A DNA stretch of 8,882 nt from an uncultured Bacteroidales bacterium (GTDB lineage Bacteria > Bacteroidota > Bacteroidia > Bacteroidales > F082), in contig CAMKAR010000074.1 of NCBI GenBank assembly GCA_946410535.1, positions 1 to 8,882 on the forward strand. Direction: 5' to 3'. Below are positions 4,244 to 8,882 of this stretch, one piece after another (the stretch's first letter is position 1; the number at the start of each line of letters is the position of its first letter). A model generated the notes under the pieces. It was not told where the DNA came from. It was given only the letters and a program-made list of their open reading frames with translations, and ran no database searches. Made by a program: the position numbers and the translations under genes.

Positions 4244-4262
4244 GGTGCGGATGGGTGCGGAT
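4244..4262 (-). promoter_or_regulatory. Candidate operator: GGTGCGGAT direct repeat, 10-bp period (copy 1)
   Basis: Two perfect GGTGCGGAT copies (plus-strand orientation) lie at 4244-4252 and 4254-4262, exactly 10 bp apart, one turn of B-DNA. The same double repeat occurs at 6078-6096 with the same flanks: AT before, and a T-run then CC after. This copy is 9 bp upstream of the -33 box of the secreted-protein gene, where an activator would be expected to bind. The binding protein is unknown. The regulator encoded just upstream is one candidate. Confidence 0.55.
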
Positions 4263-4281: not shown

Positions 4282-6021
4282 TCAATGCTTTGCGTTTGAT
4301 TTTGCAAAGTCGCGCAAAGTAGCCGACAAAGGTTCGTCGCTGCCGAAAACGCCTTTCAACTTGCGGCTGCGCTCGCACACGGTGTTGAAGGCGCGTTGCA
4401 TCAGGGCGGCCATGTCGGCCTCCTCCACACCCAAGAGATAGAGGCAGCAGTAGTCGATGTCGCCCTTGGTGAGCGACGGGAAAGCTTGTTTAAGGCGCGT
4501 GGTAAACTGCCCGAAGTGGGCATCGGCGGCCTCGCGCAAAGCCATCAGCTGTTCTTTGGTGAGGGCAAAATCCTTGTAAACAAGGTAGTCCACCTTCGAC
4601 TTGAACTGTCCCGTGTTCACGCGTTCGATAATCAGGCGGCAAACCGGCTCCTCGGCAAACGAGGCGGCCTCCACTCGCTTTTTCATCGCCGTAAGAGCCT
4701 TGCCTTGCTCCTGCAATCGTCCCGTAAGGGCTCGATTCTCGGCCTTCGCACGCTGGTGCCGCCTCCGATTGAGCAACAGCGAAATCGTCAAAACCATAAG
4801 CACAACCAACAATGGCAAGATGATCGTCACGATTCGTTCACGGTTTTGCTCTGCCTCTTTTTGCCTGACGGCTTCTTGCTTTTGCTGCAAATAGTCCTGA
4901 AACAGGCTCGTGAAACGCCATTCGTCGGCCTTGGTGCCAAATTCGGGCGGCGTGTTTTGGGTCACGAAACGGGCATATTCGCCAGCCTTGTCTGACTCGC
5001 CACCATCTTCGTAAATCTCGCGCAGATAATCGGCACTTTGGGTTTTCAGGAAAAGGCTGGGCGCATCCTCGTAGACTTGATTCAGATAAACAATAGCAGA
5101 ATCATACTGGTTATCAAGTTTGTAAATATAGCCAATACCCAAATAACGGTCATATTTTTCAAACTCATTACCGATAGAGGCAATATGCTTCAGTGCAACC
5201 ACTGATGCCGAGGCATCATATCCAACGTGATAAGATGAAAGCGCCTTCCTATTGATAATATTCCTGTAAAGTATCCCAGTCGTATCCTTGATGCAGGCCA
5301 GCGATTGGTCATAATAATACAAGGCACTATCATACTGTTCCGACTTCTCATATTCGTAACCCAAGAAAAATAAGGTGTTGGCTAGACTTGACGGTGGATT
5401 GTGGGCTTTCCGTTTGTAATTCAGTACGTTATTGTAGAAATAAATAGTCGGTTCAATGAGGAATTTGTCGGAATAGATGTTGGCCAATCGGGCAAAGATC
5501 AAGGCCATGAAATTAGCCTTGTGTCCAACCATCTGCTCCTCGCTGAAATGCCGTTCCATGACTCCCAGCGCTTTATAGTATTCCTTGCAAGCCATCATCG
5601 TGAGGGAATCGTCGGAAAAAATGATGCCGTTGTTGAGGCAGATGGCATTCATGTAATGGGCGCGGGAGGAAAGGAAGGCCATGTCCTTGTCGTTGGGATA
5701 AGCGGAGGATACGCTGTCGAAATAAGCCAAGGCGGCCCCCACCTGATCGCAATAGGCCACCTCGCGACGCACCTTGAAACAGGCCTCCGAAAGCATCAGG
5801 CCTGAGTATTCGAAACTGGGCGATGGAACAGATTGGTCATTTTCGAAAAAACGTTCAAGGTACCGCAAGGCACTGTCAGGGTTGCGTTGCAAAAGACTGT
5901 CAACCGCTACCACACGGGGAACGCTGTTCTCCTGCCAATTGATTTCTGATTCCAAGGTTCTCGAACACGAAGCTCCGAGACCCATCAGCAACAAGCCTGC
6001 TATTATGTGTGTCAGTTTCAT
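4282..6021 (-). CDS. TPR / transmembrane / HTH regulator with lipoprotein-like signal
   Basis: This 579-aa protein looks like a membrane-bound signal-responsive regulator of a type common in Bacteroidales. Residues 1-18 are a hydrophobic signal ending GAS|C (Cys19), a relaxed lipobox. Residues about 35-385 are helical tetratricopeptide-like repeats (for example LFFLGYEYEKSEQYDSALYY, 217-236, and YKLDNQYDSAIVYLNQVY, 300-317). One transmembrane helix lies at about 397-417, followed by RRRHQR and a coiled coil to about 452. The C-terminal part has a LuxR-like but divergent helix-turn-helix: LTKGDIDYCCLYLLGVEEADMAALMQRAFNTVCERSRKLK (517-556). The expected layout is TPRs outside the inner membrane and the HTH inside. 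Start ATG 6021 is fixed by the signal peptide. The next minus-strand genes encode secreted proteins, and this gene and the first of them share an upstream repeat, so it may control them and itself. That is inference. Confidence 0.85.
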   Translation of the reverse strand: MKLTHIIAGLLLMGLGASCSRTLESEINWQENSVPRVVAVDSLLQRNPDSALRYLERFFENDQSVPSPSFEYSGLMLSEACFKVRREVAYCDQVGAALAYFDSVSSAYPNDKDMAFLSSRAHYMNAICLNNGIIFSDDSLTMMACKEYYKALGVMERHFSEEQMVGHKANFMALIFARLANIYSDKFLIEPTIYFYNNVLNYKRKAHNPPSSLANTLFFLGYEYEKSEQYDSALYYYDQSLACIKDTTGILYRNIINRKALSSYHVGYDASASVVALKHIASIGNEFEKYDRYLGIGYIYKLDNQYDSAIVYLNQVYEDAPSLFLKTQSADYLREIYEDGGESDKAGEYARFVTQNTPPEFGTKADEWRFTSLFQDYLQQKQEAVRQKEAEQNRERIVTIILPLLVVLMVLTISLLLNRRRHQRAKAENRALTGRLQEQGKALTAMKKRVEAASFAEEPVCRLIIERVNTGQFKSKVDYLVYKDFALTKEQLMALREAADAHFGQFTTRLKQAFPSLTKGDIDYCCLYLLGVEEADMAALMQRAFNTVCERSRKLKGVFGSDEPLSATLRDFAKSNAKH

Positions 6022-6058: not shown

Positions 6059-6077
6059 TAACCTTCAAAAAAAGCAT

Positions 6078-6096
6078 GGTGCGGATTGGTGCGGAT
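6078..6096 (-). promoter_or_regulatory. Candidate operator: GGTGCGGAT direct repeat, 10-bp period (copy 2)
   Basis: Perfect GGTGCGGAT copies lie at 6078-6086 and 6088-6096, again 10 bp apart, matching the element at 4244-4262 except for the single base between the units and one extra T in the flank. It sits 19 bp upstream of the -33 box of the regulator gene, against 9 bp for copy 1, so both would face the polymerase from a similar side of the helix. It also lies 28 bp beyond the cysQ stop, so a role in cysQ 3'-end formation cannot be excluded. Confidence 0.55.
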
Positions 6097-6124
6097 TTTC
6101 CATATATAATTATTAATCAACAAG

Positions 6125-6892
6125 TTACAATATGCTTTGATTGGCAGCCCAAGCCACAAACGGCGGGTTGGGATATTCTTTTTTGCTGTATTCCAACGGC
6201 TTGCCATCGCTGATACGGAGCACTCGGCCTCCGGCGGCGCGCAGGATGGCATCGGCGGCGGCGGTGTCCCATTCCTTGGTCTTGCTGTAGCAGACATAGA
6301 CATCGGCTGAGCCTTCGGCCAAACGCGCGAACTTGAGGCTGCTGCCTTGCGTGTCGATGACGAGGTCGGGATGGGCGGGGCGCAATACCTTATTAATATA
6401 TGCGTCCACCTCGGGCGTGCGGTGCGAACGGGAGACCAGAACCGTGTAGGGACGCACCGCGTGCGTCCGATGCACCGCGTGCGTCCGCGTGGTTACAGGT
6501 GGACACACGCAGTGTGTCCCTACGGCGTACCACAATTGGTCGATCACCGGTGCATAAATCACGCCCAAAACGGGTTGCTTGTCGTCAATCAACGCGATGT
6601 TGACCGTGAACTCGCCGTTGCGTTTCACGAATTCGGCTGTGCCATCCAGCGGGTCGACGAGCCAATAGCGCTTGTATTGCGAACGGTCTTTGGGCAAGTC
6701 CTCTTCGCTAACAAACGGAATGTCAGATGGTTTCAAGATTTCCTTAATGATATTGCTGGCACGCAAATCGGCTTGGGTAACGGGCGAGTCGTCGGTTTTG
6801 GTATAGACTTCAAACTGCGTGGCATACACCTCCATGATGGCATTTGCTGCTGATAATGCGGCTTCTATGGCTATTGACAAGAGTTTTTCCAT
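6125..6892 (-). CDS. cysQ: CysQ, 3'(2'),5'-bisphosphate nucleotidase (inositol monophosphatase family)
   Basis: This 255-aa cytoplasmic enzyme removes the 3' phosphate from PAP (and PAPS), recycling the by-product of sulfate assimilation and sulfotransferase reactions. It uses magnesium. Family hallmarks are present: KTDDSPVTQAD near residue 32, metal-binding FVSEED (Glu63, Glu64), the DPLDGT motif (80-85) followed by EFVKRNGEFTVNIALI, SRSH (154-157), GSSLKFARLAEG, and WDTAAADAI with Asp209. Its length is close to E. coli CysQ (246 aa). Residues 124-149 do not look like CysQ; they are encoded by a 78-bp palindromic repeat element and replace or extend a surface loop before the VLVSRSH strand. 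An upstream in-frame ATG at 6907 precedes the predicted promoter -7 box, so I prefer ATG 6892. No other cys genes are adjacent. The gene diverges from topA. Confidence 0.93.
   Translation of the reverse strand: MEKLLSIAIEAALSAANAIMEVYATQFEVYTKTDDSPVTQADLRASNIIKEILKPSDIPFVSEEDLPKDRSQYKRYWLVDPLDGTAEFVKRNGEFTVNIALIDDKQPVLGVIYAPVIDQLWYAVGTHCVCPPVTTRTHAVHRTHAVRPYTVLVSRSHRTPEVDAYINKVLRPAHPDLVIDTQGSSLKFARLAEGSADVYVCYSKTKEWDTAAADAILRAAGGRVLRISDGKPLEYSKKEYPNPPFVAWAANQSIL
6446..6523 (-). repeat. 78-bp palindromic repeat element inserted in frame within cysQ
   Basis: The element begins with GTAGGGACGCAC (6446-6457) and ends with GTGTGTCCCTAC (6512-6523); these are inverted copies with one mismatch. Inside are two strong palindromes with 8-bp arms and 3-nt centres: GGACGCAC/GTGCGTCC at 6450-6468 and GGACACAC/GTGTGTCC at 6501-6519. 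A weaker one lies at 6470-6484. Its length is 26 codons and its ends fall on codon boundaries of cysQ, where it reads VGTHCVCP then two RTHAV units and RPY. The opposite strand is also open and starts with the related VGTHRVRP. This has the form of a dispersed palindromic element tolerated inside a gene, comparable in principle to Rickettsia palindromic elements. No second copy is in this window. Confidence 0.7.
6452..6487 (-). repeat. Two tandem 18-bp units within the palindromic element
   Basis: Bases 6452-6469 and 6470-6487 are direct repeats differing at one position (ACGCACC versus ATGCACC at their starts). On the minus strand they encode RTHAVR and RTHAVH in tandem within CysQ. The tandem unit suggests the element can grow or shrink in multiples of 18 bp without breaking the cysQ frame. 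Confidence 0.7.
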
Positions 6893-7039: not shown

Positions 7040-8882
7040 ATGGCAAAGAATTTAGTGATTGTGGAGTCACCGACCAAAGCCAAGACCATCGAGGGTTTCC
7101 TGGGCAAGGATTTTACGGTGAAAGCAAGTCAAGGACACGTGCGCGACCTGAGCAAGAACACTTTGAGTGTCGACATCGAAAAGAACTTTGAACCCGAATA
7201 CGAGATACCGGACGACAAGAAAAACCTTGTGGCCGAGTTGCGGAAACTCTCGAAGGCAGCCGACACGGTGTGGCTCGCATCCGATGAGGACCGCGAGGGA
7301 GAGTCCATCTCGTGGCATCTCTATGAAGTGCTCGACCTGAAGAAGAAAGACACGAAGCGCATCGTCTTCCACGAAATCACCAAAACGGCCATCACCAATG
7401 CCATCGAGAACCCGCGCGACATCAACATGGGCCTCGTCAACGCACAGCAAGCCCGCCGTGTGCTCGACCGCTTGGTGGGTTATGAGCTGTCGCCATTGCT
7501 TTGGAAGAAAGTGAAACCCGCACTTTCGGCTGGTCGCGTGCAGAGCGTGGCCGTGCGCCTCATCGTCGAACGCGAGGAAGAAATCAAGAACTTCGTGCAA
7601 AGCAGTGCCTATCGCGTGACGGCACAATTCACTTTCGCCAAGGACGGGCAGGAATACACCCTTGCAGCCGAACTGCCGCATCGCTTCGAAAACGAGAAGG
7701 AAACGATGAAGTTCTTGGAGTCGTGCATCAACGCCACCTACAAAGTGGACGACATCGAAAAGAAGCCCGCCGTGCGCTATCCCGCCCCACCGTTCACCAC
7801 CTCGACGTTGCAACAGGAGGCAGCCCGCAAGTTGGGGTTCTCGGTAGCCAACACGATGCGCATCGCGCAACAGCTTTACGAATCAGGTAAGATCACCTAT
7901 ATGCGTACCGACTCGGTCAACCTCAGCAGCCTCGCTTTGGGTATGGCCAAGAAGGAAATCGAGAAAAACTATGGCGCAGAATACGTGAAGACGCGCCAAT
8001 ACCACACCAAGAGCAAAGGCGCACAAGAGGCCCACGAAGCCATCCGTCCGACCTATCTCGACCAACACACCATCAAAGGCACCGCCGACGAGCGACGACT
8101 CTACGAACTCATTTGGAAGCGCACCATCGCCTCGCAAATGGCTGACGCCCAGATGGAACGCACCAACGTGAACATCGGCATCTCGACCAACGACAAACAG
8201 TTTGTGGCCACAGGCGAAGCCATCCTTTTCGACGGTTTCCTGAAAGTCTATCGCGAGAGCTTCGACGACGTCGCAAACGAAGAAGACACCCCCATCCTGC
8301 CGCCCATCGAGGTGAACACACCACTCGACATAGAAAAGATGGAAGCCCAGCAACGCTATACGCGCCCGCCGTTCCGCTACAACGAAGCCAGCCTCGTAAA
8401 AAAGATGGAGGAATTGGGCATCGGACGTCCTTCGACCTACGCGCCCACCATCTCCACTATCCAAAAGCGCGAGTATGTGACCAAGGGCGACATAAAAGGC
8501 ACTTCACAGGAGTTCCAAATCATCTCGTTGAAAGGCAATAAGATAAGCGAAAAGAAAGGCAAGGAAACCATCGGGACCGAAAAAGGCAAGCTCATGCCTA
8601 CCGACATTGGTGTGCTGGTCAACAAATTCCTGCTCCAGTATTTTGAGAGCATCATCGACTACAACTTCACGGCCAACGTGGAGAAAGAGTTCGACCAAAT
8701 CGAGGAAGGCCAGCGTCAATGGAACGCCATGATCAAGGACTTCTACAAAGGCTTCCACCAGCAAATCATCAGCACGACAGAAAACTCCGGAAAGTTCAGC
8801 GGCGAGAAGCTATTGGGCGTCGACCCGGCCACGGGCAAGAACGTGTATGTGAAAGTCGGACGCTTTGGTCCGGTGGCACAGA
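7040..8882 (+). CDS. topA: DNA topoisomerase I (type IA), 3' truncated by the window
   Basis: The frame is open from ATG 7040 to the window end: 614 codons without a stop. TopA relaxes negative supercoils by cutting one DNA strand through a 5'-phosphotyrosine link. The Toprim domain starts at once with NLVIVESPTKAKTIEGFLG (catalytic Glu9) and contains LASDEDREGE, with the metal-binding Asp82, Asp84 and Glu86. Further family signatures are FHEITK, NAQQARRVLDRLVGYELSP, PALSAGRVQSVA, the active-site tyrosine in KITYMRTDS (Tyr287), KGAQEAHEAIRPT and RYNEASLVKKMEELGIGRPS. From about residue 592, GEKLLGVDPATGKNVYVKVG and RFGPV start the repeat type found at the C-terminus of Bacteroidota and related TopA proteins. 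No zinc-finger cysteines occur in the visible part. The start is fixed by the conserved N-terminus MAKNLVIVES. It diverges from cysQ. Confidence 0.97.
   Translation, partial: MAKNLVIVESPTKAKTIEGFLGKDFTVKASQGHVRDLSKNTLSVDIEKNFEPEYEIPDDKKNLVAELRKLSKAADTVWLASDEDREGESISWHLYEVLDLKKKDTKRIVFHEITKTAITNAIENPRDINMGLVNAQQARRVLDRLVGYELSPLLWKKVKPALSAGRVQSVAVRLIVEREEEIKNFVQSSAYRVTAQFTFAKDGQEYTLAAELPHRFENEKETMKFLESCINATYKVDDIEKKPAVRYPAPPFTTSTLQQEAARKLGFSVANTMRIAQQLYESGKITYMRTDSVNLSSLALGMAKKEIEKNYGAEYVKTRQYHTKSKGAQEAHEAIRPTYLDQHTIKGTADERRLYELIWKRTIASQMADAQMERTNVNIGISTNDKQFVATGEAILFDGFLKVYRESFDDVANEEDTPILPPIEVNTPLDIEKMEAQQRYTRPPFRYNEASLVKKMEELGIGRPSTYAPTISTIQKREYVTKGDIKGTSQEFQIISLKGNKISEKKGKETIGTEKGKLMPTDIGVLVNKFLLQYFESIIDYNFTANVEKEFDQIEEGQRQWNAMIKDFYKGFHQQIISTTENSGKFSGEKLLGVDPATGKNVYVKVGRFGPVAQ

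Follow-up and report, generated by a model that had tools for sequence, protein, structure and literature searches.

A GTAG-tagged REP dimer read in frame through cysQ of a Bacteroidales bacterium, in an enzyme loop probably overwritten repeatedly by dispersed repeat families

In the window, as we call the whole analysed stretch of 8,882 nucleotides, the cysQ gene of an uncultured Bacteroidales bacterium is read in frame through a palindromic element of 78 bp. This raises the question of what the element is and how it came to lie within the coding sequence of an enzyme. The results are probably best explained by a REP dimer in a CysQ loop that has repeatedly been overwritten by dispersed repeat families. 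The features concerned are the following.

6125..6892, minus strand: cysQ, encoding a 3'(2'),5'-bisphosphate nucleotidase of 255 amino acids plus stop (TIGR01331; open frame from 6907)
6446..6523, minus strand: inverted dimer of GTAG-tagged REP units, in frame, CysQ residues 124-149
6446..6468, plus strand: REP unit 1, with GTAG tag, 8-bp stem and 3-nt loop
6469..6486, plus strand: 18-bp tandem copy of the unit 1 stem-loop, missing in the 60-bp form of locus L039
6487..6500, unstranded: 14-nt inter-unit spacer
6501..6523, minus strand: REP unit 2, inverted, its minus-strand GTAG tag being 6520-6523
7040..8882, plus strand: gene divergent from cysQ and cut by the window end, which we take to be topA-like from its motifs

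The element is a GTAG-tagged REP dimer of the BIME-like kind, read in frame. Its unit sequence, GTAGGGACRCACNNNGTGYGTCC, has stem arms of 8 bp (GGACGCAC/GTGCGTCC) and a 3-nt loop next to the GTAG tag. GTAG-tagged REPs are defined in Table 1 of PMC3733652 by GTAG at one end, a stem of 5-13 bp and a loop of 2-20 nt, and the window element belongs to them by its GTAG beside the stem. The architecture described in the original prediction was confirmed. It comprises the inverted terminal 12-mers GTAGGGACGCAC (6446-6457, plus strand) and GTAGGGACACAC (6512-6523, minus strand), two perfect palindromes with 8-bp arms (6450-6468 and 6501-6519) and a tandem 18-bp unit (6451-6468 and 6469-6486, 94% identity between the copies). 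Translation likewise bore out that the element measures exactly 26 codons and ends on codon boundaries (codon offset 0, residues counted from the ATG at 6892), and that both strands are open in the frame of their own first base, with the similar peptides VGTHRVRP... and VGTHCVCP.... Of its three frames, the unit in GTAG orientation has one closed by a stop (TAG); all three are open in the inverted unit. A 60-bp form of the element is present in L039, the nearest relative; the simplest view is therefore that the 18-bp unit was duplicated later, a length of 26 codons being peculiar to the window allele.

The terminal 12-mer alone is unremarkable in the window, at least two matches being found in 43 of 200 shuffles when two mismatches are allowed, and neither is it extreme for cysQ to contain one inverted 12-mer pair, as shuffled sequences average 0.19 and reach 3. 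What lies beyond chance is the RNA fold of the 78 bases (-51 kcal/mol, z = -6.37, equalled in 0 of 200 shuffles) and the recurrence of the core pattern across the genus genomes. The notion that the stretch is ordinary protein sequence and palindromic by accident would agree with a region that varies in length in the family anyway; it is refuted by this fold, by copies elsewhere with other flanks and by relatives without the element. An Rfam scan of the window gave no matches at gathering scores, and among the features named, the plasmid search matched cysQ alone. Near two gene ends, at 6077-6097 and 4244-4262 of the window, short tandem repeats (TGGTGCGGAT / GGTGCGGATG) were seen.

The window CysQ passes the curated cut-off of the TIGR01331 profile (247.3 bits against 228.8), and its best solved-structure match is 3b8b. 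A first structure model was poor (pLDDT 64.8) and was superseded by a second one, which places the element in a disordered loop between the strands 119-124 and 150-154. Residues 124-149 had been expected to form a variable loop, and the length variation in the family and the second model both support this. It had further been suggested that the element replaced native sequence rather than merely adding to it. Replacement is the likelier of the two, since the loops of L073, L079, L080 and L088 differ in length and carry no recognised repeat. The topA-like neighbour was found by tblastn in most other cysQ loci as well.

Of 99 genomes of the genus, 46 contain exact matches to the core GGGACRCACNNNGTGYGTCC, at up to 35 sites in one of them (G082), and none contains the reversed control pattern. 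The family is centred on one rumen and hindgut genus of Bacteroidales, the Candidatus Alcium / F082 group. The relatives are Bacteroidales MAGs from such sources as rumen, reticulum, abomasum and horse faeces; bacterium F082 (Candidatus Alcium sp. F082 at NCBI) is one of them. Each genome mentioned in this work is either a MAG or made up of metagenome contigs. When 395 genomes were sampled phylum-wide, the core with its GTAG tag was found in one, G001, which is the genome nearest the window (36% of sampled 31-mers). The range is not strictly one genus, because parts of the element match G027, from another family of the order.

The surroundings of the copies were read in 60 stretches from six genomes, covering all sites of G022, G053 and G056, seven of the eight of G014, part of G082 and one site of G060. 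They hold 60 element clusters. According to a strict codon score, 10 of these are read through in frame inside a gene; the codon score together with recognised flanks places 21 in recognisable genes and leaves 39 without gene assignment. GTAG-tagged REPs in general lie mostly outside genes. The 21 genic clusters belong to cysQ (3), a RAYT gene (1), TPR proteins (7), type IX secretion tail domains (6), Dus (2), a U32 peptidase (1) and an EamA transporter (1). A Pfam check, applied outside the three cysQ cases and L239, gave weak TPR matches and no match for L192, and the match in both Dus proteins does not extend to the element. Within the C-terminal sorting domains of type IX secretion (L185, L196, L227, L236, L243 and L239, the last outside the Pfam run), the units are read as ADARGASL / GRTRCVP. 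In other genomes, TPR-type genes of the kind found in the window at 4282-6021 (minus strand) bear the element, placed between YFDS and FLAARAHY-like motifs; in the window copy no unit was seen there. Copies lie apparently outside genes, in RAYT genes and in frame in other genes. Among the fetched loci they include 36 distinct inverted dimers, formed by pairing in opposite orientation. These findings agree with the earlier claim of a dispersed palindromic family: copies with other flanks exist elsewhere in the genus genomes, and relatives without the element at the cysQ site were found. The idea that the family supplies new peptide segments also holds up, several proteins carrying in-frame units. 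We infer that the family has moved and that repeats have entered the loop and been swapped there.

The same survey speaks against a further claim, that the family is selected to be frame-neutral. Among the 36 inverted dimers, 14 are in cysQ (60 bp, and 78 bp in the window) and two in RAYT genes (90 and 75 bp), and all of these are multiples of three. The 20 dimers without gene assignment leave the remainders 0, 1 and 2 in 4, 12 and 4 cases. Frame neutrality as an intrinsic trait of the element was rejected, as only 4 of the 20 are divisible by three; these dimers are not independent, three coming from one L159 array and others having common flanks, and 4 of 20 does not differ significantly from one third in either direction (probability of at most 4, 0.15). 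Dimers of 60 bp also occur outside cysQ, in L186 and L205, and one of 61 bp in L038. Since the cysQ and RAYT dimers are 3n long and the others mixed, frame neutrality looks like a filter on genic copies.

A candidate for the mobilizing enzyme is encoded in G011 (L026/L155). This RAYT-like gene is flanked by units of the window's GTAG family and holds an imperfect in-frame unit directly after MPNHVHLIVV. Its protein is RAYT-like by profile, because it scores below the cut-off of NF047646 (REP_Tyr_transpos; 57.5 bits, E = 1.3e-15, cut-off 80) and above that of Y1_Tnp (26.2 bits, E 9e-6, cut-off 23); the name RAYT is applied on account of the flanking REPs. Relatives of the protein are present in 71 of the 99 genomes. 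An automatic search detected a GTAG stem-loop within the protein match in 18 of 30 RAYT loci, L155 being added by eye, and in 11 of those 18 the same palindrome type also lies less than 400 bases outside the match. The full GTAGGGACRCA unit is found in none of the 30 best Y1_Tnp profile loci (L122-L151), which in our reading are IS200-type genes, and RAYTs bearing the window's family were recovered only with the L026 protein as query. It was presumably a RAYT that moved the cysQ element. At L122:1300-2060, a Y1_Tnp gene lies amid CCCCTACGGGGTA / CCCGTAGGGG-type repeats, a separate small palindromic family.

Comparison of the window with 53 named cysQ loci, 54 in total, shows a conserved core and a loop that is one of ten repeat classes, assigned by eye, in 48 of them. 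The classes are GTAG GGGACRCAC (14 loci), GGAATGC (10), CTCAACT (9), CACCTTT (3), GGAGACAG (3), GTAG GGGCTGTC (2), GGAGGAC (2), GACACGGG (2), CGTC (2) and GTGGA (1). Four loops are without visible repeat (L073, L079, L080 and L089), and that of L088 has no recognised one. The sole broken case of the 54 is the cysQ of L091 (2501-3207), with a frameshift within a CACC-type loop that could be genuine or an assembly error. Further copies in the same genome were found for eight classes. For CGTC, GGAATGC, GTGGA, GACACGGG (one copy), CACCTTT, CTCAACT and GGAGGAC they are among the matches listed in joined-loop searches, which scored part of the candidates and whose counts are matches listed; for GTAG GGGACRCAC they come from the core-pattern search. 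Among the matches listed, GTAG GGGCTGTC has copies in other genomes only, besides those in RAYT flanks, and the GGAGACAG class has no further copies and is a candidate repeat only. Of 120 CysQ proteins listed, 116 have readable loops; 109 of these fit the same classes by peptide pattern and 7 are left over. In L083, the 14-nt spacer matches the reverse complement of the other species' spacer at 12 of 14 positions and its direct form at 8 of 14, as if it had been inverted between the arms.

Diversity of this kind might be an artefact of assembly or binning, repeats making short-read assemblies chimeric at the loop. The sources are indeed metagenome assemblies, and one repeat loop, that of L091, is frameshifted. 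However, none of the 67 readable loops contains a stop, the loop protein clusters are populous (291 member sequences in P0007 and 22 in the window-like P0002), and the cysQ sequence on either side is colinear and has the same neighbouring gene, so that we consider an artefact very improbable.

The loop class turns over fast, since the nearest core neighbour has a different class in 35 of the 52 cysQ loci that align gap-free over 639 bases outside the loop (L088 and L091 were excluded). The cysQ-core tree requires at least 26 class changes, a tree of topA alone (44 rows) 27 and one of the two combined 29, where 10 would be the minimum and shuffles average 34. The class is also partly inherited, because only 0 or 1 of 200 shuffles gave values as low. 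Different loops are found even in supported sister pairs with 29 (L050/L057), 40 (L061/L072) and 57 (L047/L070) differences in the 639 bases. L041 is a supported sister of L063, L064 and L068, with 58 and 61 differences to L063 and L064. In the 120 bases round its loop it is nearest the window clade (4 differences to L039 and L049, 12 to L064), and outside that stretch it is nearest the L063 clade. L041 thus carries a short recombined tract and provides the one clear case of allele transfer between species.

The L041 tract would also be expected if a few loop alleles had each formed once long ago and had since been shuffled by homologous recombination, with no present acquisition. L047 and L040 point in the same direction: by a small margin, the 120 bases round their loops have their nearest counterparts in other GTAG-class species and not in their sisters. 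Because loops of one class share a spacer or other non-repeat parts, many of the class changes may have come about by species trading alleles that already existed. Across 13 GTAG loci, parts of the element diverge at silent sites by 0.15-0.20 and the core by 0.34-0.60 (few sites), which also favours old alleles. By contrast, L050/L057 and L061/L072 are mutual nearest neighbours right up to the loop, the GGAATGC loops span 25-49 residues and vary in build, and the 18-bp duplication of the window relative to L039 is a change within an allele. We therefore regard old alleles without present acquisition as unlikely, and favour repeated overwriting of the loop by dispersed repeat families.

Repeats of other classes were also found in frame in MurE (L290), SufS (L292), Asd (L287) and TilS (L274, L261), with profiles or domains matching on either side. 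For Asd and TilS the 30 best-scoring loci each, which are not a random draw, were inspected. In Asd, 25 of the 30 are readable: nine have CTCAACT (three of them also CGTC-like), four GTAG-tagged repeats, 11 one common loop lacking a recognised repeat, and one is unassigned. Among the four, L394 has units of the window-family kind, one of them degenerate. In TilS, 27 of 30 are readable and, assigned by eye from the peptides, contain mainly CGTC-like and PEPVEG-type peptides, the others being GGAATGC-, CTCAACT- or CACC-like. A CGTC-type repeat occupies the same TilS loop in L261:196-1623 and L274:985-2310 (both minus strand), apparently in opposite orientations.

A fold z below -2 was obtained for 28 of 53 cysQ loops compared with 4 of 159 control stretches (p = 2e-9). 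This excess would be explained if a hairpin in the mRNA or DNA were itself selected, for translation pacing or mRNA tuning, so that any strong palindrome would suffice; the arms of the GTAG class, moreover, vary little at silent sites. The CTCAACT, CACCTTT and GGAGACAG loops (15 of 52), however, have z of -1.7 to 2.3, which is not beyond chance, showing that not every cysQ loop is palindromic. The loops of Asd and TilS fold no better than control (p = 0.13 and p = 0.52, respectively), and these two enzymes are for this reason weaker cases than cysQ. In the 13 GTAG loci, dN/dS is near 0.22 in the arms and 1.6 in the spacer (few sites), and the value of the arms is also explained by selection on the peptide. 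Selection for the hairpin thus seems rather improbable to us. Folding as a common trait of repeat loops was rejected: it is true for cysQ overall and fails for Asd and TilS.

For the overwriting of the CysQ loop we propose the following route. A RAYT of the kind with REPs in its own gene would have spread the family, and coding copies would persist only if they are free of stops, 3n long and placed in a tolerant loop. The CysQ loop would serve as a sink where dispersed repeat families of unrelated sequence successively displaced each other. A new allele probably originates when a repeat inserts or when a dispersed copy serves as template, short base matches at the loop ends perhaps guiding the copying, and alleles also cross between species by short-tract recombination. 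In all 52 aligned loops the last residue, ahead of the conserved VLVSRSH stretch, is aromatic, with R-P before it in 35 of the 52 by our own count; such ends fit guidance by matching bases and selection at the protein level alike. A broader reading, to which we give slightly less than an even chance, is that of a standing cassette site: one surface loop is overwritten in frame by whichever repeat family is active and is then traded between species. CysQ would be its clear case, Asd and TilS likely ones, and MurE, SufS, Dus and the U32 peptidase single ones. If this is true, genomic repeats are a steady source of new peptide segments in core metabolism. The original prediction was thus supported as to a dispersed palindromic family and not supported as to selection for frame neutrality, and the other families in the loops of sister species lay beyond its view.

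The element itself is of a known kind, since in-frame REPs and REPs in RAYT genes have been published (PMC3733652, PMC6006769). As far as our searches of the open-licence PMC literature reach, it is a new form of this known kind that many repeat families exchange at a single enzyme loop throughout a genus. Descriptions of genic REPs and RPEs have mostly dealt with scattered insertions that are tolerated; in CysQ, a single loop can be traced over about fifty species, including sister pairs that differ little outside it. Such pairs make it possible to measure the rate of repeat entry, the level at which selection acts (peptide, RNA or frame) and any use gained. In the sections of PMC6006769 drawn on here, in-frame REPs inside RAYT genes are reported for RAYT/TnpA-REP subclass 2.4, Bacteroidetes included, which is the likeness to the RAYT genes described above; on host enzymes that paper cites PMC3733652. 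Rickettsia palindromic elements are similar in being palindromic repeats in frame in genes that probably work, and those of R. conorii end in CGTC, according to the part of PMC3733652 used here. They differ in belonging to another phylum and are set beside the window element by description only. The closest likeness is to the GTAG REPs and BIMEs, for which the corresponding sections describe the tag, a short stem-loop, inverted dimers, dispersal, RAYT association and some in-frame genic units (Di Nocera et al. 2013, PMC3733652). The paper also notes that recB of two Xanthomonas species carries different REPs at roughly one position. GTAG repeats are listed there for Proteobacteria, Cyanobacteria, Chloroflexi and the PVC group, and for Bacteroidetes CGTC only. 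Compared with the GTAG REPs as presented in those sections, the host here is a member of the Bacteroidales, and many unrelated repeat families occupy a single enzyme loop in about fifty species.
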